From Actinomycetes bacterium (lineage in GTDB: Bacteria; Actinomycetota; CADDZG01; JAHWKV01), in NCBI GenBank assembly GCA_029263075.1, contig JAJCYE010000023.1:1-56035 (forward strand): DNA of 56,035 nucleotides. Direction: 5' to 3'. The position numbers and the translations under genes are program-made. The notes under the pieces were generated by a model. The model was not told the DNA's origin and did not search any database. It was given only the letters and a program-made list of their open reading frames with translations. This document shows, piece after piece, positions 3,255-43,079 of this stretch; the first letter of the stretch is position 1, and each line of letters opens with the position of its first letter.

Positions 3255-5390
3255 TCAGGCGCTTCCAAGGGTGCAGGTGCAACCGCCGTGAGCCGGAGGC
3301 GCCAGATGTCCGCTTGGGAACGGCGTTTTCAGGGACACCGGGCCTGCGTCGGCGTTCTTGCGGCAGACATCGCCCGGGCACTCGCTTTCTTCCTCCGACA
3401 GGATCCATGACTTGTTGGCGCCGGACTCCGCACCCCAGGCGTCGACAAGGCCTTGGTGGTAGGCCGCATAGGAGATCCCTTCCCCCAAGAGCTGGGTCCG
3501 GACCCCTTTCCACACCCGGAAGACGTCATTGGCTCGCTCGCTCAAAGCAGGCGCCGACTCCGCTACCTCGAGCCCGGACGCGATCGCCTTCAAGACTTCG
3601 GTCCGAAGCGGGTTCAGGACCTGACGACTCAGGAGCCTGGCTACCACCGCCGAAGAATCCGCGCCTCCGCCGGCTCCTCCGACCTTGCGGCCTTCAGAGA
3701 ACGCCTGATCGAGAGCTTCTCCGAGTCCTGCGGCAAACCGGTTGAGCTGTTCATCTTTGGGGGCCAGGTTGTCGTCTGCGGTCCCCTTGCCCTTTTGGAC
3801 CCTCATCCGATCGAGCAGATCATTGTGTTCTTCCTGCAAAAGCCGCTTCAGGCGGCGTGCCGTCTGGGCCGGGAGGTCTCCGAGGGCCTCACGGCGCCGA
3901 AGAATCTGTTCGTTTGAAGTGACGGACGGGGTCAACTGCGGCTGAGGGTTGGCCTGTCGTTCCTCTTCTTCCCGCTTGCGGCGAATCTCTGCCAGCAGGT
4001 CATCGAGGGACGATCCGCCCTCGGGGGCCGGATCCTGGTCTTTCGGCTTCTCGGTTCCACCATTCTTGGGCTTCTTTGCCGACGTCTGGTCCTGCCCGGC
4101 CTCCGGCCGGGCCGCCTCCGCCTCGGGACGCGCTGACTCCGCCCTGGCGGCCTTTTCCGCTTTGGCACGGGCCGCTTCTTCTGCCTTTGCGCTAGCCGCT
4201 TCTTCTGCCCTGGCGCGAGCAGCCTCCTCGGCTTTCGCACGAGCGGCTTCTTCTGCCTTGGCACGTTCGACCGCTTCTGCCTTGGCTCTGGCCGCTTCTT
4301 CCGCCTTCGCACGGGCAGCTTCTTCCGCCTTCGCACGAGCAGCTACTTCTGCTTTGACGCGAGCCGCTACTTCTGCTTTGACGCGAGCCGCTTCTTCTGC
4401 CTTGGCGCGAGCCGCCTCTTCTGCCCTGGCTCGGGCGGCCTCTTGGCCCTTGGCGCGGGCAGCCTCCTCAGCTTTGGCTCGTGCCGCTTCTTCGGCCGAC
4501 CGGGAGCGTTCGGCTTTGAGGCGGTCGGCCTCCCGAGCGGCGGTTACCGCAGCTTGCATATCCGCCGCCTGTTGGGCTTTGCGGGCTTCGGCCTGCACCG
4601 AACGCAACTCGTTTTCCCGGCGCTCGACCTCTGCCCGGTGGGCGTTTTGGCGCGATTGGAGTTCGACCGCGGCTTCCTGCTCCCGATTCTGCAGTTGCCA
4701 GCCGCTCGACTCGGGCATTCGGCCCGGTTGCTGCTGATCCTTCTCCGACCCCTCCGGCCGCTGGCGGAATCTCGATACCGTTTTGGGTCCGGGCAACTCG
4801 ACCGGCACCCGGAGCCGGGAAATCGTCTCCTCCAACCGCCTCCGAATGTCTTCCAGTTGAGAAGCCACCATGTTCCGAGACTCTTTGATCCCGGCAAAGT
4901 CTTCTTCTGCGGCACGACGAGCCGCCGCCAACTCCTCCATGGTCCTCTGCGCCTTCAGCCGGGCATCGGTCATGATCTCGGCAGATTCCTTCATCGCCCG
5001 CTCGTGGAGCTGTTCGGCCGCCTGTTCGGCGGCCAGGAGGATTCGTTCGGTCTCCTGACCAACCAGCTTGAACGCCGATGCCCGGTCCTCAGCTTGAGTC
5101 GTCTTGGGAGGCTCGGGGCGGGTTGCCGGCTCCGGCTCCTCGCGTGGTTGTTCGGCGACCGCCAGCCTGGCGTTGACCTCGTCCAGTTGAACATTCAGGT
5201 CCCCTAGTTGCGTGCGGGACTTGGCCAGTTCGGCGTTGGAGTGACTCAACTCGGAAGTCGCCTTGGTCAATTGCTTGCGCAGGATCTTGATTTCTTGGGC
5301 GACTTCTTCGCGGAAAGAGTCGACTTCGTCCCGCGCATAACCCCTGAGCGTGACTATGAACTGGCGATTTTCGATCTCTTCAGGATCCAT
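3255..5390 (-). CDS. DivIVA-domain coiled-coil protein with Cys-rich C-terminal motif
   Basis: This 711-residue protein begins with a DivIVA signature (residues about 1-40: RQFIVTLRGYARDEVDSF), the membrane-curvature-binding segment of actinobacterial polar growth proteins such as Wag31. A long coiled coil follows, then roughly 20 copies of an EEAARAKA-type octapeptide (about residues 290-430), far longer than in ordinary DivIVA (250-400 residues). The C-terminus is unusual: after a helical region it carries ECPGDVCRKN and then PPAHGGCTCTL. This resembles the Cys/His end of Mu gpF-like phage head-morphogenesis domains. Start ATG has GGAAAG upstream. The role is probably polar or septal scaffolding; the C-terminal domain is unexplained. 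The plus-strand Ala/Ser-rich ORF at 3949-4737 is a shadow of the repeats. Confidence 0.75.
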   Translation of the reverse strand: MDPEEIENRQFIVTLRGYARDEVDSFREEVAQEIKILRKQLTKATSELSHSNAELAKSRTQLGDLNVQLDEVNARLAVAEQPREEPEPATRPEPPKTTQAEDRASAFKLVGQETERILLAAEQAAEQLHERAMKESAEIMTDARLKAQRTMEELAAARRAAEEDFAGIKESRNMVASQLEDIRRRLEETISRLRVPVELPGPKTVSRFRQRPEGSEKDQQQPGRMPESSGWQLQNREQEAAVELQSRQNAHRAEVERRENELRSVQAEARKAQQAADMQAAVTAAREADRLKAERSRSAEEAARAKAEEAARAKGQEAARARAEEAARAKAEEAARVKAEVAARVKAEVAARAKAEEAARAKAEEAARAKAEAVERAKAEEAARAKAEEAARARAEEAASAKAEEAARAKAEKAARAESARPEAEAARPEAGQDQTSAKKPKNGGTEKPKDQDPAPEGGSSLDDLLAEIRRKREEEERQANPQPQLTPSVTSNEQILRRREALGDLPAQTARRLKRLLQEEHNDLLDRMRVQKGKGTADDNLAPKDEQLNRFAAGLGEALDQAFSEGRKVGGAGGGADSSAVVARLLSRQVLNPLRTEVLKAIASGLEVAESAPALSERANDVFRVWKGVRTQLLGEGISYAAYHQGLVDAWGAESGANKSWILSEEESECPGDVCRKNADAGPVSLKTPFPSGHLAPPAHGGCTCTLGSA

Positions 5391-23551: not shown

Positions 23552-23778
23552 TAATTCCGACTCCTTCAGACGTACTCAAAGTAGGGGGGTACCCGCCGGA
23601 GAGTCATTGTATCTATGAAGACTGGCACGCGCTCGGGGTGCGGCTAAGCCCCGATGTACCGTTGCTCCCCGACCCGGCGATAAGATCTACCCGAGCCAGC
23701 CGGGACCGGCTCGTTGGATCCGGCGCCATTATTGCGGATACCCGGATACTCGGCTTCGAGACCTGGAGGGCGGCGGAC

Positions 23779-25008
23779 ATGCTGGGCTGGGAAGTGATTC
23801 CAAGGATTCCGCTGGGAAGTCTCAGCGTTTCGCCCCACGGCGTGGGTATTGCCGTCGGCTATTTCATAGGCGCCACCATGATGGCCAAGCGCGCCCGGCG
23901 CACGGGCTTCGATGAAGACCACGCCTGGAATGCGGCAGTGGTCGGCATCCTCGGGGCAATTGTTGGCGCACGGGTGGCATACGTGGTCGGCCACAGCTCG
24001 GACTTCAGCCGTCCCCTCGAGTACCTACAGATCTATAAGGGCGGAATCTCGCTCATGGGCGGCCTTGTCGGCGGCTTTTTGGCGGCCTCCCTGTACTGCC
24101 GGGTCAAAAAACTCGACTTTTTGCGCCTCGCCGACCTGGGCGCCGCCGGGCTGGCCTTAGGCACTGCCATCGGGCGGATCGGCGACCTGGTGATCGGCGA
24201 CCACCTAGGCAAGATCACCAGTGGTTTTTGGGGCTGGGAGTATAAGGGCGGCGAACTGATCTCCTCCCCTCCTTGCGATGTAGCCGTCTACCCGAGCCCG
24301 GATGGTTGCATCCGGCCCGGAATGGTAGTCCACCAGACGGCGCTGTACGACAGCATCTGGGCCCTGGTCATCTTCGGGGTGATCCTTCGGATGGAGAAGA
24401 ACAAGAGCCGGCCCAAGGGATTCCTGATCCTGACCTGGGCCGCGATGTACTCGGTGGGGCGGATCCTCACCGACCTGACCCGGGTCGACAAGACCTGGTT
24501 CGGCACCGGGCTGACGGGGAGCCAGTTGACTGCGATAACCGCCCTGCTCCTGTCGTTGTTTTTCCTGGTCAAGCTCCGCAAATCGAAGCCGGCGGCGTCA
24601 GGATCAGCCGGTCCGGACGGGACGGTCGCCGAGAAAAGGGTTGCCGTGGAGGAGTCGGTGGTCGAAGGCCACACCCTGGCCATCTCAGCGACGGCAGAGG
24701 AGCCCAAAGAATCAACGGCCGGCGGGGGGCTTGAGCAGGTTCCGGACAAACCGGTCCCCGGTGATACGGGCGGCCCGGTGGAACCCACGGCCGCGGTAGC
24801 CGAGCCAGAGGAATCCGGACCCGCCGCCGGGATATCGGAGGTCGAGGCGACCGCCGAGCTCACGACCGGTTCGGGCGAGCCGGAAGCCGAAAACGGTGAG
24901 GGGCAAGATCCCGGTGCTCCGGTTGAGGCGGAGGTCGTCACCGACCAGCCGGACCCCTCCGGTGACCCGGAGGATTCTCCTAAGGCCGGGGACTCCGAGG
25001 AGCGTTAG
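23779..25008 (+). CDS. lgt: Prolipoprotein diacylglyceryl transferase with long acidic tail
   Basis: I start this at the ATG at 23779, nine bases after GGAGG; the upstream 47 codons in the track are not Lgt-like. Seven helices and the signature AIGRIGDLVIGDHLG, with the essential-type Arg, plus YSVGRILTDLTR, identify Lgt, which attaches diacylglycerol to lipobox cysteines. The E. coli HGG histidine is Met here (LMGGLVGG), a substitution region also variable in mycobacteria. After residue about 275 comes a 130-residue acidic, Pro/Glu/Ala/Thr-rich tail of low complexity, which is unusual for Lgt. It would serve the FecR-like and 37-kb lipoproteins in this window. Confidence 0.9.
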   Translation: MLGWEVIPRIPLGSLSVSPHGVGIAVGYFIGATMMAKRARRTGFDEDHAWNAAVVGILGAIVGARVAYVVGHSSDFSRPLEYLQIYKGGISLMGGLVGGFLAASLYCRVKKLDFLRLADLGAAGLALGTAIGRIGDLVIGDHLGKITSGFWGWEYKGGELISSPPCDVAVYPSPDGCIRPGMVVHQTALYDSIWALVIFGVILRMEKNKSRPKGFLILTWAAMYSVGRILTDLTRVDKTWFGTGLTGSQLTAITALLLSLFFLVKLRKSKPAASGSAGPDGTVAEKRVAVEESVVEGHTLAISATAEEPKESTAGGGLEQVPDKPVPGDTGGPVEPTAAVAEPEESGPAAGISEVEATAELTTGSGEPEAENGEGQDPGAPVEAEVVTDQPDPSGDPEDSPKAGDSEER

Positions 25009-31858: not shown

Positions 31859-32833
31859 ATGCTCGAAGGAGTCCTCGGCTCGTTAGCAGCCAAAATTCTT
31901 GCAGGTGTCTTGGGTGTCGCCGGAATAGCCGGGGGGTTGGGTGCGGCCGGCGTGCTACCCGGCGTTCCCGGAATCGGCGGGAGCGCCCCGGAGGTTGAAG
32001 TAGCAGCCACCGCCGGGGACACCACGGTTTCCACCTCCTCCGCGCTCCCCGTTGACCTTGCCGGCCTTCCGCTAGGCAGCGAGGCGGCCGGCGTGATGGC
32101 TCTTATCGAGCAGGCGCAGGCAGCGGCCGACAACGCCGGTGCCGCGGCAAGCTTGTGCCTGGACACCGCCACCACCCAGGTCTCCGGGCTCGTTGCTTCT
32201 ATCGCCGGCCTCACCGACCCGGCGCAACTGCAGAGTCTGCTGGGCAAAGTCGCAGCGGTTGGAACCCAAGCACAGAGTTGCGCCGATCAGGCGACGGCCA
32301 TGGGCAGGACCGCAGTGGACAAGGCACGTGAGGCCTCTCAGGCCGCCGGAGCCCTGGATTCCGCTGGACTGGGTGATCTCGGCGGCCTCACCGATCCCGA
32401 AGATATCCTCGGCCAGATCCTGGCCGCAGCCCTAGGCGCCGGCGATGCCGCTGCTGCCGCAGAGGACCTCGCCTTGGGAATCGTCAACCAGGTGATCACG
32501 ACCGTCGGTGCGCTGCTTCCCGGCCTTGGTGACGGTGGCCTCCCGATTCCCGGCCTGGGTGACGGTGGCCTCCCGATTCCCGGCCTTGGTGACGGTGGCC
32601 TCCCGATTCCCGGCCTGGGTGACGGTGGCCTCCCGATTCCCGGCCTGGGTGACGGTGGCCTCCCGATTCCCGGCCTTGGTGACAGTGGCCTCCCGATTCC
32701 CGGCCTCGGCCAGGGCGGCCCACTACCGGGCCTGGAGAACGGCAACCCCATTGACCTGGCCAACCAACTGGTCGGCAACATCATGGGGGCTCTGGGTGGA
32801 CTGACCGGATCTCTCCCCGTACCCACTCCGTAA
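31859..32833 (+). CDS. Secreted or membrane-anchored repeat protein (GLGDGGLPIP repeats)
   Basis: This 324-residue protein has an N-terminal hydrophobic segment (ILAGVLGVAGIAGGLGAAGVLP, residues about 13-35) and an Ala-rich helical middle with two cysteines (AASLCLDTATTQ; QAQSCADQATAMG). Then come six exact copies and one divergent copy of the decapeptide GLGDGGLPIP, and an end containing LVGNIMGALGGLTGSLPVP. The repeats recall low-complexity surface or adhesin-like proteins. Strong AGGAGG site. A bidirectional terminator follows. Position after an ECF sigma gene suggests regulated surface display. I know no family for it. Confidence 0.75.
   Translation: MLEGVLGSLAAKILAGVLGVAGIAGGLGAAGVLPGVPGIGGSAPEVEVAATAGDTTVSTSSALPVDLAGLPLGSEAAGVMALIEQAQAAADNAGAAASLCLDTATTQVSGLVASIAGLTDPAQLQSLLGKVAAVGTQAQSCADQATAMGRTAVDKAREASQAAGALDSAGLGDLGGLTDPEDILGQILAAALGAGDAAAAAEDLALGIVNQVITTVGALLPGLGDGGLPIPGLGDGGLPIPGLGDGGLPIPGLGDGGLPIPGLGDGGLPIPGLGDSGLPIPGLGQGGPLPGLENGNPIDLANQLVGNIMGALGGLTGSLPVPTP
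32522..32701 (+). repeat. Six tandem 30-base repeats inside the repeat-protein gene
   Basis: The unit GGCCTTGGTGACGGTGGCCT plus CCCGATTCCC is repeated six times without gaps. Copies differ mainly at base 6 (T,G,T,G,G,T) and one GACGGT to GACAGT change; a seventh copy is degenerate. The near identity at DNA level implies recent expansion and likely length variation between strains. Confidence 0.95.
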
Positions 32834-37739: not shown

Positions 37740-38147
37740 CTATTTGCTGCGCATGGAGTTGTTGCGAGGTTTGTGCTCCAGTTCCGCCAGTCCCAGGTGC
37801 TCCAGCAGCGGCGGAAGGTACATCCCGAACCGGCCACGGTAGCCCTTGCGCAACCCGTACCACCCCCCGACCGGGTTGTCCTCCGCCCTGCCCCACGCTT
37901 CGACCGTACCGGGCTTGGCGGGCTTTTTCTCGTCGGCTGCGCCCAACTCCACCCAGTCGCCGGCAGCGACCAGCATGGCGTGGAGGTCCTCAACGCATCT
38001 CAGGTGGTACTTCAGGGTGGTCGACCCAACAACACAGACCAGCGCGGGCGGGTCCGCATCGGGATCCCGGTACATCTTGTACTCCGAGCTGCCCGGAGGG
38101 GTCTTCAGCACCCAGGGATCATCGATGGTGCCGGCTGGATCGGACAT
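37740..38147 (-). CDS. Conserved DUF6855-like protein
   Basis: This 135-residue protein reads as a known widespread conserved family, from memory DUF6855: DDPWVLKTPPGSSEYKMYRD, ALVCVVGSTTLKYHLR, then DWVELGAADEKKP, NPVGGWYGLRKGYRGRFGMY and EHKPRNN. No enzymatic function is known to me. Strong AAGGAG site. It is last in the minus-strand cluster of Lgt-like protein, radical SAM enzyme and small membrane protein, though a 12-base gap makes membership likely but not certain. Confidence 0.65.
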   Translation of the reverse strand: MSDPAGTIDDPWVLKTPPGSSEYKMYRDPDADPPALVCVVGSTTLKYHLRCVEDLHAMLVAAGDWVELGAADEKKPAKPGTVEAWGRAEDNPVGGWYGLRKGYRGRFGMYLPPLLEHLGLAELEHKPRNNSMRSK

Positions 38148-38159
38148 GGTTGAACTCCT

Positions 38160-38459
38160 TTATCCCACGATCTCCAACAGACTCTTCACAGTAAAACCTG
38201 CGCCCGCCACGAACGCGAGACCCAGGTAGGCGAGCACCAGCCGGGTGTCCTTGAGGATGCACTTGCTGGACTTCAAGCCGCCCCGGTAGGCCTTGGTGTA
38301 GGCCCACAAACCCATGCCGGCAAAGAAGGTGACCACAGCCGCAGGCGTGAGCAGCCACGCCAACAGGGCGATGGTGGTGAAGATGCACAGCCGCAGCGGG
38401 TCGTGAACCGGACCCCTGGGCCGCAGATCCGGCGAGTTACTCCTAAGGTGTCTCGACAA
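38160..38459 (-). CDS. Small membrane protein coupled to the radical SAM gene
   Basis: This 99-residue protein has three hydrophobic segments (LCIFTTIALLAWLLTPAAVV; VTFFAGMGLWAYTKAY; LVLAYLGLAFVAGAGF) separated by a basic loop YRGGLKSSKCILKD. The TTG start has AAAGGAG eight bases upstream and overlaps the end of the radical SAM gene by 17 bases, so the two are translated together. I do not recognise the family. It could anchor or assist a membrane-lipid enzyme. Confidence 0.65.
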   Translation of the reverse strand: MSRHLRSNSPDLRPRGPVHDPLRLCIFTTIALLAWLLTPAAVVTFFAGMGLWAYTKAYRGGLKSSKCILKDTRLVLAYLGLAFVAGAGFTVKSLLEIVG

Positions 38460-40002
38460 GCGGCAGGCTCCTTTCCACGCGCTCTGAAAGTTTGGTTTTC
38501 CCCAGCTTCGGCCACGCCTGCACTGCGCAGAAGGGGGCGCACTGGTGCTGGGTATCGCTCGCGGTCCCCACGTGGATACAGCACTGGAGCAGGCGTTCTT
38601 CGAGCATGGTGTTCATATCCATGAACGGCTTGACCGTGATCCGCTTGATACGGGTGCCTATCATGTCCCGGACCTTTCTGCGGCCACCCAGAACGGCTCC
38701 CCCGGCCATCTTCGCCAGCGTGGACAGGCCGATGTCGCAGTTTTCGCAGATGTTCTTGAACAGGTCGGTGACCGTGGGGTGAGTCAGGGAGGTCACCTCA
38801 GACATCAGCCCCAATAAGGATGCCTTGACCAGTTCGCGGATCTGCTCGGGAATTTCCCGATCCGCCACCCGGTTGGAGACCAGATCCAGGTGCTGCTTCA
38901 GCCGCTCGTGGCCGATGACCTTGGCCAGCGACCTCCACTCCCCCTTGTCGTCCAAGAGCATGTAGCCGACCGACGAACAATGCGGGTGGGAGCAGGGCAG
39001 GGCGGTCAGGTCGTCCCAGCCGACCAAACCGCCGGTCTGGGGAGACAGGCGGGCCAGCACGCCGGTGTGGGTCAGCCGGTTCATCGGGTCGATGTCCCCG
39101 GAACGGCCGGACCCGAACTGGGGCTGCAGTGCGATGCCTCCCACGTAGGGCGTCTCCAGTCCGAACTTCACCACATCGCCGATTTCGTCGTCGTTCACCC
39201 CCAGCGCTGCGGTCATGGTCAGGGTGGTAAAAACACCGGCGGCGCTCAGGCGTTCCACCGCTTGTTTTTTGATGCGCCTCAGGTCGGCGTTGCGGTGGTG
39301 CTGGTGGGTGGACAGCTTGAACCCGTCGAACTGCAGGTAGACCTCGAACCGTTCCCGGTGTTTCTCCAAGAATTCCAAAAGCTCATCGTCCCGAGCGAGT
39401 TGGATGCCGTTGGTGTTGATCAGTACCCGGACGATGTCCCGGTCCATGGTTGCTTTGAGGATCGGCAGCAGGTCGGGGTGAATGGTTGGCTCCCCCCCGG
39501 AAATCATCAATACGTCCAGGCGGCCGTTCTCCCGCACCAGGCGCTGGTCGATGTTGTCCATAACCTCCCGCGCCGGGACAATGCCCCCCGCCTCGGGCGC
39601 CGACCCGGCGAAGCAGGTTGGGCAGTTGAGGTTGCATTTGTGGATGATCTCCTCCAGCAGGATGCAGGTGTGTTGGGTTTGCAGTTCGCCCAGGCCCTCC
39701 AGGTAACCGGCGGGCACCGGGGTGAAGTTGCCCGGGCTATCGGGTCCGTGCACTTTGGTGGGGGCGGTCCACTGCTCCAGATAGGTCAGGATCGCCGGGT
39801 CCTCGTCGTACATGGTGGTTACCTTGCCGTGGACCGGGCACCCGCGGACCAGCCACACCCGACCTTCGGCCTCCGCCAGATAGCCGGACAGTCGCTCGAC
39901 CTGCTCCAAAGGACGGAAGGGGTTCTCCTCGTGGCAGTGGGGGCAAAAGGCGTTGACGTAACGCCGGATCCGGTCCTGGCGAAGGGGCATACCCGGAGTC
40001 AC
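38443..40002 (-). CDS. Tes/MJ0619-like radical SAM enzyme with extra Cys clusters
   Basis: The real start is near 40002 (GTG overlapping the upstream stop as GTGA, with GGAG seven bases before) or ATG 39990; the ORF upstream to 40416 is antisense shadow. The 519-residue product has an N-terminal zinc or rubredoxin-like segment (AFCPHCHEENP; VRGCPVHGKV), a radical SAM cluster motif HKCNLNCPTCFAG, ISGGEPTIHPD, and C-terminal cysteines CENCDIG, QCCIHVG and HQCAPFCAV. That layout matches the MJ0619/Tes family. Tes joins lipid chains to make membrane-spanning tetraethers in archaea; bacterial relatives act on lipids or are uncharacterised. Here it sits behind an Lgt-like gene. Confidence 0.8.
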   Translation of the reverse strand: MTPGMPLRQDRIRRYVNAFCPHCHEENPFRPLEQVERLSGYLAEAEGRVWLVRGCPVHGKVTTMYDEDPAILTYLEQWTAPTKVHGPDSPGNFTPVPAGYLEGLGELQTQHTCILLEEIIHKCNLNCPTCFAGSAPEAGGIVPAREVMDNIDQRLVRENGRLDVLMISGGEPTIHPDLLPILKATMDRDIVRVLINTNGIQLARDDELLEFLEKHRERFEVYLQFDGFKLSTHQHHRNADLRRIKKQAVERLSAAGVFTTLTMTAALGVNDDEIGDVVKFGLETPYVGGIALQPQFGSGRSGDIDPMNRLTHTGVLARLSPQTGGLVGWDDLTALPCSHPHCSSVGYMLLDDKGEWRSLAKVIGHERLKQHLDLVSNRVADREIPEQIRELVKASLLGLMSEVTSLTHPTVTDLFKNICENCDIGLSTLAKMAGGAVLGGRRKVRDMIGTRIKRITVKPFMDMNTMLEERLLQCCIHVGTASDTQHQCAPFCAVQAWPKLGKTKLSERVERSLPLVETP

Positions 40003-40805
40003 GCGAGGTCTCCGGCCGGGCTCATCCCTGCCACTGCCCCGGACCGGTAGGCGCCCCGTGAGACCTGCCGGAAGAAGTAGATCGCCAGCAGGAGGATCGA
40101 GGGGATCAAAAAGAGCTGGGAGCCGCTCAGTCCCGACCACAGGACCTGGTTGCCCCGGACAAACTCGACGCCGAAACGGAAAACTCCGTAGGCGAAAAGG
40201 TAAACCTTGAACAGCTCGCCGGGAACCGGGATCCGGTCCCGCAGCCTCCAAAGGACGGCGAAGATCAAGATCTGAAAGGCGATCTCGTAGAGGAACGATG
40301 GGTGCATCGGAACCCCCGCCGGGGGGCTGCCGGGCAAGGTGGCCGCGATCCGGGCGTTCACCGCCATCCCCCAAGGCAACGTGGTGGGGGTGCCGATCTG
40401 TTCGGTGAAAAAACACCCCAAGCGGCCTATCGCCATGCCCAGGGCGATGCCGGGAGCGAACATATCCCCCGTCTTGCCTTCGTAGCCCACGGCTTTTTTG
40501 GTGATCAGGGCGCCCAGGTAAGCGCCGGCCAGCCCTCCCAGAATGCTCTTGCCTCCGTCGATCAACGCCCCGATCAACGTGGGGTCTTCATTCAGTTGCA
40601 GGTACTGCCACACAGTCGACAGCTTGGCGCCCACCGCTCCGAAGAGCAGGGTCCCCGCCATCACGGCGCCCAACTCCTGGGTCATCCGGCCCTGCCGGCG
40701 AGCTTCGTAAGCCATCAGGACCGTGGCGCTCAAGACTCCCAGGGTCAAAAAGAAGGCGTGGGTAGGCACCGCCAAACCGCCGAGATGGAACAGGACCGGG
40801 AGCAT
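39999..40805 (-). CDS. Lgt-like membrane protein (second Lgt family member)
   Basis: I use the ATG at 40805 (MLPVLFHLGGLAVPTHAFF), the usual Lgt N-terminus; an ATG at 40847 is possible, and the longer ORF to 41006 overlaps the divergent tspO gene. The 268-residue product has about seven helices, the Lgt-type AIGRLGCFFTEQIGTPT and YGVFRFGVEFVRGN. It belongs to the GCF-containing side group of the Lgt family rather than the canonical enzyme, which is at 23.8 kb. Overlap with the radical SAM gene suggests a joint task, perhaps handling glycerolipid substrates. Function inferred only. Confidence 0.75.
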   Translation of the reverse strand: MLPVLFHLGGLAVPTHAFFLTLGVLSATVLMAYEARRQGRMTQELGAVMAGTLLFGAVGAKLSTVWQYLQLNEDPTLIGALIDGGKSILGGLAGAYLGALITKKAVGYEGKTGDMFAPGIALGMAIGRLGCFFTEQIGTPTTLPWGMAVNARIAATLPGSPPAGVPMHPSFLYEIAFQILIFAVLWRLRDRIPVPGELFKVYLFAYGVFRFGVEFVRGNQVLWSGLSGSQLFLIPSILLLAIYFFRQVSRGAYRSGAVAGMSPAGDLA

Positions 40806-40867
40806 TTGGCCCAAGCTAGCAGGGCGCAGCCGGATAAACCAGACCATCAAGGGTCCGGGCTCTCGCA

Positions 40868-41531: not shown

Positions 41532-43079
41532 CTACTCCACCGTCAAATCCAGCAGGTGGTGACCGGTAGCGCCCGCCGGGTGGGGACGTGAGCCCTGGGC
41601 GGTTTGCACGTCGCCTTCGCCGTCGACCGCCCGCACCATCACCCGGACCTTCCCGGGTGCCGCATCGAGGTCGGCGGCCCACAGCCGCCAGGTCCGCTTG
41701 GACAGTTCTCGCTTGAGGACCGCCGGCTTCCAGGTGTCGCCCCGGTCGGTTGAGATCTCCACCCGGCGGATTCCCCGATCTCCGGCCCAGGCAACCCCGG
41801 CCAGCTTGGAGCCCCGCTTCACCCTGGCGTTGTCGGCAGGGACATCGAATCGGGACTGGGTCTTCACGTAGGCCTCGTCGCTCCAGCCACGGACCATCCA
41901 GTAGCCCTGGTAGTCGGTAGCAACCGTTTCAATCTCGGTCAGCCACTTCACGTTCTTCATGCCGTAGATGTTGGGCACGATGATCCGGGCCGGGAAACCG
42001 TGTTCGGTGTTCAGTGCCTCCCCGTTCATGCCGAACACCAGCAGGGTGTCGCTCTGGAGTGCCTCGGCCAGCGGGATGGAGTCCGAATAACCCTCAGCCC
42101 CCCGGAACACCACGTCGACAATGCCGTCCTTCAACTTCGCTTTGGCCAGCACATCCTTCAGCCTCACCCCACGCCATATCGCGGTGCCGATGAGGTCCCC
42201 GCCCACGTCGTTCGAGATGCAGGTCAGGGTGTGCGCCATCTCGATCACCTCAAACTCGTTTTGCATCTGCTCGTAGGTCAACGAGTAGGGCGACTCCATC
42301 AGCCCGTGGATCTTCAACTCCCAGTCGGTGTGGTCGACCACCGGTTTCACGATGTTGATGTCCACGTTGTAGAAGTCCTCGACCGAAGTGAACTCGGGCG
42401 AATGCCCTACCACCACGGGGAAATCGCCGCCGTCGGGCGCCACGTACTTGCGGGCCGCCTCGACGATAGTCACCTTGGGGGCGTTCCTCCTGGTCAGGAC
42501 CGCCCGCAAAACGCTGCCGCCCGCCAGCAGGGCCCCCAGACTCCAGGCGGCGCGGGTAACGAATCGGCGGCGGGACCGCGAGATGGCGTCCAGCGGGGTT
42601 TCGTCACCCTCTACCGCCTTCGGCTCGATCGCCGCCAGCAGCGGTGTGTCCAGGACCAAGATGGCGAAAACCACGGCGGCGGCAAAATAGATAACCGCCG
42701 AGGCGACGGACAGGCCGGAAACGTCTCCGAACGCCAGCACCAGCGAGGCCGCAAAAAACCCGATCCCCACCGCGATTGCCCGCCGGGCCTTTTGGGCGTC
42801 GGAGCCCTCCCGGTGGATCCTCCCGGCGATCCACCCGCCGGCCAGCAATGCCGCCACGTTGACGCCGGCCCCGAAGCCCCTGAGGGCATAAGGACCCAGC
42901 TTCTCGATCATAAAAGTGGAGAGGTCTCCGGGGACCACCCGCAGGACGATGGAGGCAATCCTGGCCGGAGGGTACGAGACCAGGGGCAGCAAGCTGCGGG
43001 CGCCGAACACCACCAGGAGTGCGGTGCCCATGGCGATAACGCCCTTGAAGAACGTGGCCCGCTTTTTTGGTCGAGTCAC
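41532..43079 (-). CDS. Membrane-anchored sulfite-oxidase-fold molybdenum enzyme
   Basis: This 515-residue protein has four N-terminal helices in the first 150 residues, a further Tat-like helix after SRRRFVTRAAW, then the sulfite oxidase molybdopterin domain (DFYNVDINIVKP; molybdenum-ligand Cys in HTLTCISNDVGGDLIG; NTEHGFPARIIVPNIYGMKN) and the dimerisation domain (SKLAGVAWAGDRGIRRVEIS). The catalytic part faces outside the cell. The natural substrate is uncertain (sulfite, or repair of oxidised methionines as with YedY). GTG start overlaps the YgfZ stop by one base. No heme partner is nearby. Confidence 0.88.
   Translation of the reverse strand: MTRPKKRATFFKGVIAMGTALLVVFGARSLLPLVSYPPARIASIVLRVVPGDLSTFMIEKLGPYALRGFGAGVNVAALLAGGWIAGRIHREGSDAQKARRAIAVGIGFFAASLVLAFGDVSGLSVASAVIYFAAAVVFAILVLDTPLLAAIEPKAVEGDETPLDAISRSRRRFVTRAAWSLGALLAGGSVLRAVLTRRNAPKVTIVEAARKYVAPDGGDFPVVVGHSPEFTSVEDFYNVDINIVKPVVDHTDWELKIHGLMESPYSLTYEQMQNEFEVIEMAHTLTCISNDVGGDLIGTAIWRGVRLKDVLAKAKLKDGIVDVVFRGAEGYSDSIPLAEALQSDTLLVFGMNGEALNTEHGFPARIIVPNIYGMKNVKWLTEIETVATDYQGYWMVRGWSDEAYVKTQSRFDVPADNARVKRGSKLAGVAWAGDRGIRRVEISTDRGDTWKPAVLKRELSKRTWRLWAADLDAAPGKVRVMVRAVDGEGDVQTAQGSRPHPAGATGHHLLDLTVE

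Follow-up and report, generated by a model that had tools for sequence, protein, structure and literature searches.

The archaeal tetraether lipid synthase goes by the names Tes and MJ0619, which denote one enzyme, GDGT-MAS, as stated in passages of PMC9433317 that also describe its tunnel as binding bacterial phospholipids. A preliminary description of the DNA analysed here had counted Tes and MJ0619 as two reference families, a distinction that has to be given up. The second protein family concerned is Lgt, the prolipoprotein diacylglyceryl transferase, for which Y26, H103, R143, N146, G154 and R239 are listed as essential in E. coli in the relevant passages of PMC13251419. In the same passages, Mycobacterium smegmatis MSMEG_5408 figures as a second Lgt homologue carrying Y26H and N146C with presumed low activity, and a radical SAM partner is not mentioned there. 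The bacterial membrane-spanning lipid synthase Mss shares a proposed product class with the system described below. A published linkage between Lgt and a radical SAM enzyme was not found in the open-licence literature.

The window, a contiguous stretch of 56,035 nucleotides, comes from an actinomycete MAG congeneric with the MAG 'Actinomycetes bacterium OFTM18'. Three genes follow one another on its minus strand: LGT2, an Lgt-fold paralog (39999..40805 (-); Pfam LGT, 3.8e-44), P0001, a radical SAM enzyme of 519 aa (38443..40002 (-); Pfam Radical_SAM, 1.3e-20, and HMPTM zinc ribbon, 2.6e-9), and SMP, a small membrane protein of the DPLRLC...GYxxARRAGLxxSKC family without a Pfam match (38160..38459 (-)). 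For LGT2 the ATG at 40805, used in the preliminary description, fits the homologues better, the other option being the ATG at 40847. The end of LGT2 at 39999 and the GTG start of P0001 at 40002 form a GTGA overlap, and the stop of P0001 at 38443 and the TTG start of SMP at 38459 a 17-base overlap; the coordinates were re-read and the overlapping trio stands as previously described. A DUF6855 gene (37740..38147 (-); PF21619, 2e-71) begins 12 bp downstream of SMP, and a gene for a membrane-anchored molybdopterin (sulfite-oxidase-like) protein (41532-43079), kept in the genus, lies close upstream of LGT2. The linkage of each to the cassette is confined to the window's genus and neither was accepted as a module member. 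Elsewhere in the window, the proteins encoded at 31859-32833 and 3255-5390 contain long simple repeats (GLPIPGLGDG and ARAKAEEAA).

The radical SAM enzyme compared with Tes

The AlphaFold2 model of P0001 (pLDDT 83, pTM 0.84) had a single full-length match in the PDB, GDGT-MAS (7tom/7tol, TM 0.71/0.74), with a sequence identity of only ~22%, while other radical SAM structures matched the core only (TMq of the next one ~0.35). The helical region 375-439 was modelled with pLDDT <50, so that the second lipid pocket could not be checked in the model, which counts against a reading in which lipid tails are handled. Against the NCBIfam models, P0001 reached 152.8 bits with Tes (NF045702, curated cut-off 450) and 205.2 bits with TrsS (NF045646, curated cut-off 490), the latter being the best-scoring named model; the clade B members tested likewise stayed under both cut-offs.

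In the radical SAM tree, MJ0619, acidobacterial Tes and a second acidobacterial group are separated by a 100* branch from two further clades, A and B, clade A comprising relatives at 59-89% identity to P0001 recovered in a scan of GTDB species genomes. The branch setting P0001 apart from the Tes clade (100*) has a length of 1.42. As a quick tree with some long branches (L089, L023, L091), it leaves the order within clade B unsure.

The cofactor sites show what is shared with GDGT-MAS and what is not. The rubredoxin-type CxxC...CxxH of Tes is present in P0001 as the half-sites C20xxC23 (39934..39945 (-)), counterpart of MJ0619 C9/C12 by position and conservation, and C55xxH58 (39829..39840 (-)), aligned to C33/H36, and the radical SAM CxxxCxxC (C123, C127, C130; 39613..39636 (-)) is invariant. 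Three stretches of the C-terminal cluster region carry cysteines: C337/C342 (38977..38994 (-)); C474-C475 (38578..38583 (-)), aligned to MJ0619 C455/C456; and C488...C492 (38527..38541 (-)), of which C492 aligns with C470 and C488 is clade-specific. By alignment, P0001 C342, C474, C475 and C492 correspond to MJ0619 C338, C455, C456 and C470, candidate ligands of the C-terminal active-site cluster. On the other hand, P0001 has A98, E102 and G105 in place of the [4Fe-4S]N ligands C73/C77/C80 of Tes; in the alignment these positions are 0% Cys in clade A and 93-96% Cys in clade B. Clade A carries extra cysteines at C337, C419, C422 and C488, and C337 is invariant in clade B too; the C419xxC422 pair (38737..38748 (-)) is found in 98-100% of clade A, and Tes and clade B have it hardly or not at all. 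Two labile residues of MJ0619, Met439 and Tyr459, were not conserved in the comparison with P0001, and both are described as dispensable in MJ0619 itself in passages of PMC9433317. A branch with Clostridium and others retains only two of the C-terminal cysteines and, therefore, the chemistry may differ among branches.

P0001 was not accepted as Tes, in view of its score, its clade and the cluster ligands it lacks, nor as TrsS, in view of its score. The motifs previously pointed out (CNLNCPTCFA, CPHC...CPVHG and the C-terminal Cys sets) are all present and the Tes/MJ0619 family placement holds as regards the predicted fold, but not as regards orthology: the phylogeny against Tes/MJ0619 that the preliminary description had called for places P0001 outside the Tes clade. 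As judged from model and sequence comparison, P0001 shares the fold of GDGT-MAS/Tes without being a Tes itself.

The Lgt paralog and its divergence

LGT2 scored 97.4 bits against TIGR00544, below the cut-off of 118.9, and its AF2 model (pLDDT 88) had E. coli Lgt (5azb, TM 0.66) as sole significant fold match in the PDB. Its signature GRLGCFFTEQIG (40392..40427 (-)) keeps R143 and has Cys at N146 (E. coli numbering), and the residues aligned to R239 and E243 are encoded at 40164..40178 (-). The clade A LGT2s keep R143, R239, E243, R246 and D129, with Y26 replaced by His and N146 by Cys without exception and H103 replaced by Leu in nearly all, LGT2 itself included. Measured against the essential E. 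coli residues listed in the Lgt passages cited above, LGT2 retains three of the six, R143, G154 and R239, and lacks Y26, H103 and N146. The Lgt-fold partner proposed earlier is thus borne out by the fold match and by the phosphatidylglycerol-binding arginines that LGT2 keeps.

LGT2 is not the sole Lgt of its genome, since a housekeeping-type Lgt (23638..25008 (+); Pfam LGT), which groups with the canonical Lgts, is encoded in the same window, and at least one Lgt homologue besides LGT2 was present in 18/18 cassette genomes tested. The residue combination Y26H and N146C reported for MSMEG_5408 is shared by every clade A LGT2 tested, and mycobacterial LGT2s fall in the same family. From this combination, as given in those passages, and from the mycobacterial loci examined, we infer that MSMEG_5408 belongs to the LGT2 module, whereas it has been reported as a weak Lgt.

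In the Lgt tree, all 37 Lgts linked to the radical SAM gene formed one group against 22 canonical Lgts, drawn mostly from the same genomes (98*). Among the 15 genomes with all three proteins, the distances of the radical SAM enzyme correlated with those of LGT2 at r=0.82 and with those of the canonical Lgt at 0.18 (Mantel, 0/5000). These comparisons indicate that the radical SAM enzyme and LGT2 have evolved together.

Linkage in close and distant relatives

Clade A spans Actinomycetota, Gemmatimonadota and one Blastocatellia MAG, and identity falls sharply below it, to ~28-38%. LGT2 was found near the radical SAM gene in 52/57 clade A loci, the remaining five being cut by contig ends, and SMP homologues adjoined the gene in 45/57; SMP was not found at the mycobacterial and Aldersonia loci of this survey. 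Independently of the clade A list, each protein served as a separate query against 397 Actinomycetota genomes: nine of them (5 families) contained the clade A enzyme, the nine best LGT2 matches fell in the same nine genomes, and the two genes were adjacent in 9/9, the enzyme halves sitting at contig ends in one genome. Newly drawn clade A actinobacterial loci were LGT-linked in 6/6 cases. The genome survey that the preliminary description had suggested thereby bears out a conserved linkage of the trio. The cassette was also seen on plasmids of Mycobacterium avium (pS2b, L176) and M. branderi (pJCM12687, L177), near IS elements, where the annotation of its genes goes no further than 'radical SAM protein' and 'prolipoprotein diacylglyceryl transferase family protein', separated by hypothetical proteins.

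Relatives at ~30% identity occur in Bacillota, Bacteroidota, Chloroflexota, Patescibacteria and Omnitrophota and are mostly Lgt-linked, an Lgt homologue being nearby in 20/25 loci and three of the other five ending at contig edges. Gene orders vary among the distant linked loci, a frequent one being radical SAM enzyme, ICMT/PEMT-type methyltransferase, DUF4395 protein and Lgt. The methyltransferase and the DUF4395 protein, which often has a Cys-rich C-terminal tail, lie between the two genes at L085-L088, L090-L092, L094, L096, L097, L099, L100, L104, L188 and L189. Whole-phylum searches supplied a fresh sample, in which Lgt linkage was seen at 8/10 loci of Bacteroidota, at 2/2 of Bacillota and at two further loci of Ktedonobacteria, and in a Chloroflexota group at 43-46% identity the linkage was seen in just one of six. 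An Lgt was not found near several distant radical SAM relatives (L022, L023, L084, L098, L190, L193, L200, L202-L205). On a plasmid of M. vanbaalenii (L178, 3227-8267), the neighbours of a family member are a second small radical SAM gene and genes for a methyltransferase, a disulfide oxidoreductase and CcdA, with Lgt absent; this is possibly a Trs-type cluster.

As controls, acidobacterial loci with true Tes, above the NCBIfam cut-off, were inspected and an Lgt was found at 0/10 of them; the result was the same (0/10) at loci of the second acidobacterial Tes-like group (L146-L155). This second subfamily scores ~310-345 bits for NF045702 and differs from true Tes; it seems to be widespread among Acidobacteriota, where 90/199 genomes had sub-cut-off NF045702 matches only (E <= 1e-60).

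Taken together, the survey has shown, at the level of sequence, that the radical SAM enzyme and a diverged Lgt paralog are inherited together in adjacent positions in many phyla, in most cases along with one or two very small membrane proteins. The linkage so documented is real and old, and the surveyed loci indicate that the pair reaches back much further, and is spread much more widely, than the trio first described.

Small membrane proteins and the proposed chemistry

A radical SAM enzyme of GDGT-MAS fold is paired here with an Lgt paralog dedicated to it. This pairing is real and conserved and apparently undescribed, and a slightly better than even case can be made that it represents a bacterial module, not described before, for the modification of lipids at phospholipid tails. 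In such a module, the radical SAM enzyme would draw a phospholipid acyl tail into its hydrophobic tunnel, its 5'-deoxyadenosyl radical would take a hydrogen off an unactivated tail carbon, and a C-C (or C-S) bond would then be formed with the help of its C-terminal [4Fe-4S] cluster, the candidate products being tail-to-tail coupled, methylated or thiolated. LGT2 would bind phosphatidylglycerol via its conserved arginines and pass the diacylglyceryl moiety on to an acceptor specific to the cassette, not to prolipoproteins. Against this module reading count the low identity of P0001 to GDGT-MAS and its missing [4Fe-4S]N cysteines, the reduced C-terminal cysteine set of the Clostridium branch, the distant radical SAM relatives near which an Lgt was not found, and the fact that many cassette organisms are ordinary aerobic soil bacteria, for which we know of no membrane-spanning lipid. 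Several more specific readings were weighed; these overlap, and their probabilities are not meant to add up to one.

At loci that have it, the candidate acceptor is a second small protein, SMP2, with three predicted hydrophobic segments, which is encoded at most clade A and many clade B loci and which no Pfam family fits. The loci examined point to SMP2, with its single invariant Cys, as the usual third member of the module, and not SMP. Among 38 diverse members, the sole invariant residue is a Cys ~5 to 17 residues from the C-terminus, ending a signal-peptide-like segment made of a basic loop, ~18 hydrophobic residues and GxC. An HMM built from the clade A (actinobacterial) SMP2s alone recovered clade B SMP2s adjoining the cassette in distant phyla and had no match in 232 kb of Tes control loci. 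This Cys is a lead as candidate LGT2 acceptor, and these features speak for a lipidated carrier, in which LGT2 would add a diacylglyceryl thioether to the Cys and the radical SAM enzyme would then modify the tails of the protein-bound lipid. However, SMP2 was not recognisable at the loci of the window's genus and of Gemmatimonadota (the best match in the window's own genome was partial and unconvincing, E 0.0075), its motif differs from a standard lipobox by G at -2 and a varied residue at -1, and its membrane topology is deduced from basic residues only. The carrier reading is accordingly tentative, and we would sooner doubt than assert it. Its full form, an ancient three-part system in which the Lgt paralog would load diacylglycerol on the Cys of the 3-TM mini-protein SMP2 and the Tes-fold enzyme would perform carbon-radical chemistry on the held tails, a carrier-protein logic for membrane lipids, we regard as unlikely.

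Strict membrane-spanning lipid synthesis, the reading put forward in the preliminary description, in which the radical SAM enzyme would couple two fatty-acyl tails end to end like Tes and LGT2 would handle the glycerol end, is in our estimate improbable. The GDGT-MAS fold of P0001 and its retained C-terminal cluster cysteines are in keeping with it, and proposals for brGDGT synthesis have invoked Tes homologues of bacteria (PMC8941075; PMC11868695), though bacterial Tes activity is called unconfirmed in the latter. Against it stand the position of P0001 outside the Tes clade and far under the Tes cut-off, and the acidobacterial Tes loci, which lack Lgt, are better brGDGT candidates.

Quite unlikely, in turn, is a TrsS-like or class-D-methylase-like enzyme acting on a different, possibly soluble, substrate: TrsS gives the best NCBIfam score and passages of PMC9433317 record that MJ0619 was initially assigned to methanopterin methylation, but the TrsS cut-off is not reached and the partners conserved with the enzyme are membrane proteins, among them one of a lipid-handling type (Lgt), with ICMT/PEMT in a distant branch. 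That LGT2 is a mere second prolipoprotein Lgt of low activity, as MSMEG_5408 is presumed to be in the passages cited above and as N146C in some Lgts that look like the genome's main copy might allow, with the radical SAM enzyme an unrelated neighbour, is very improbable in view of co-occurrence and adjacency over several phyla and matched divergence.

The proposed lipid-modification module bears on brGDGT biosynthesis and palaeothermometry, where the question is which bacterial Tes-like enzymes make which lipids. Among the bacterial homologues, true Tes stands apart from a second lineage, which its partner gene defines, and, therefore, surveys in which every Tes homologue is scored as a maker of membrane-spanning lipids may arrive at wrong counts. 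The second Lgt of mycobacteria, reported as weak in the passages referred to above, is suggested to be a member of another pathway, and the two or three adjacent genes offer a genetic handle in cultivable actinobacteria.
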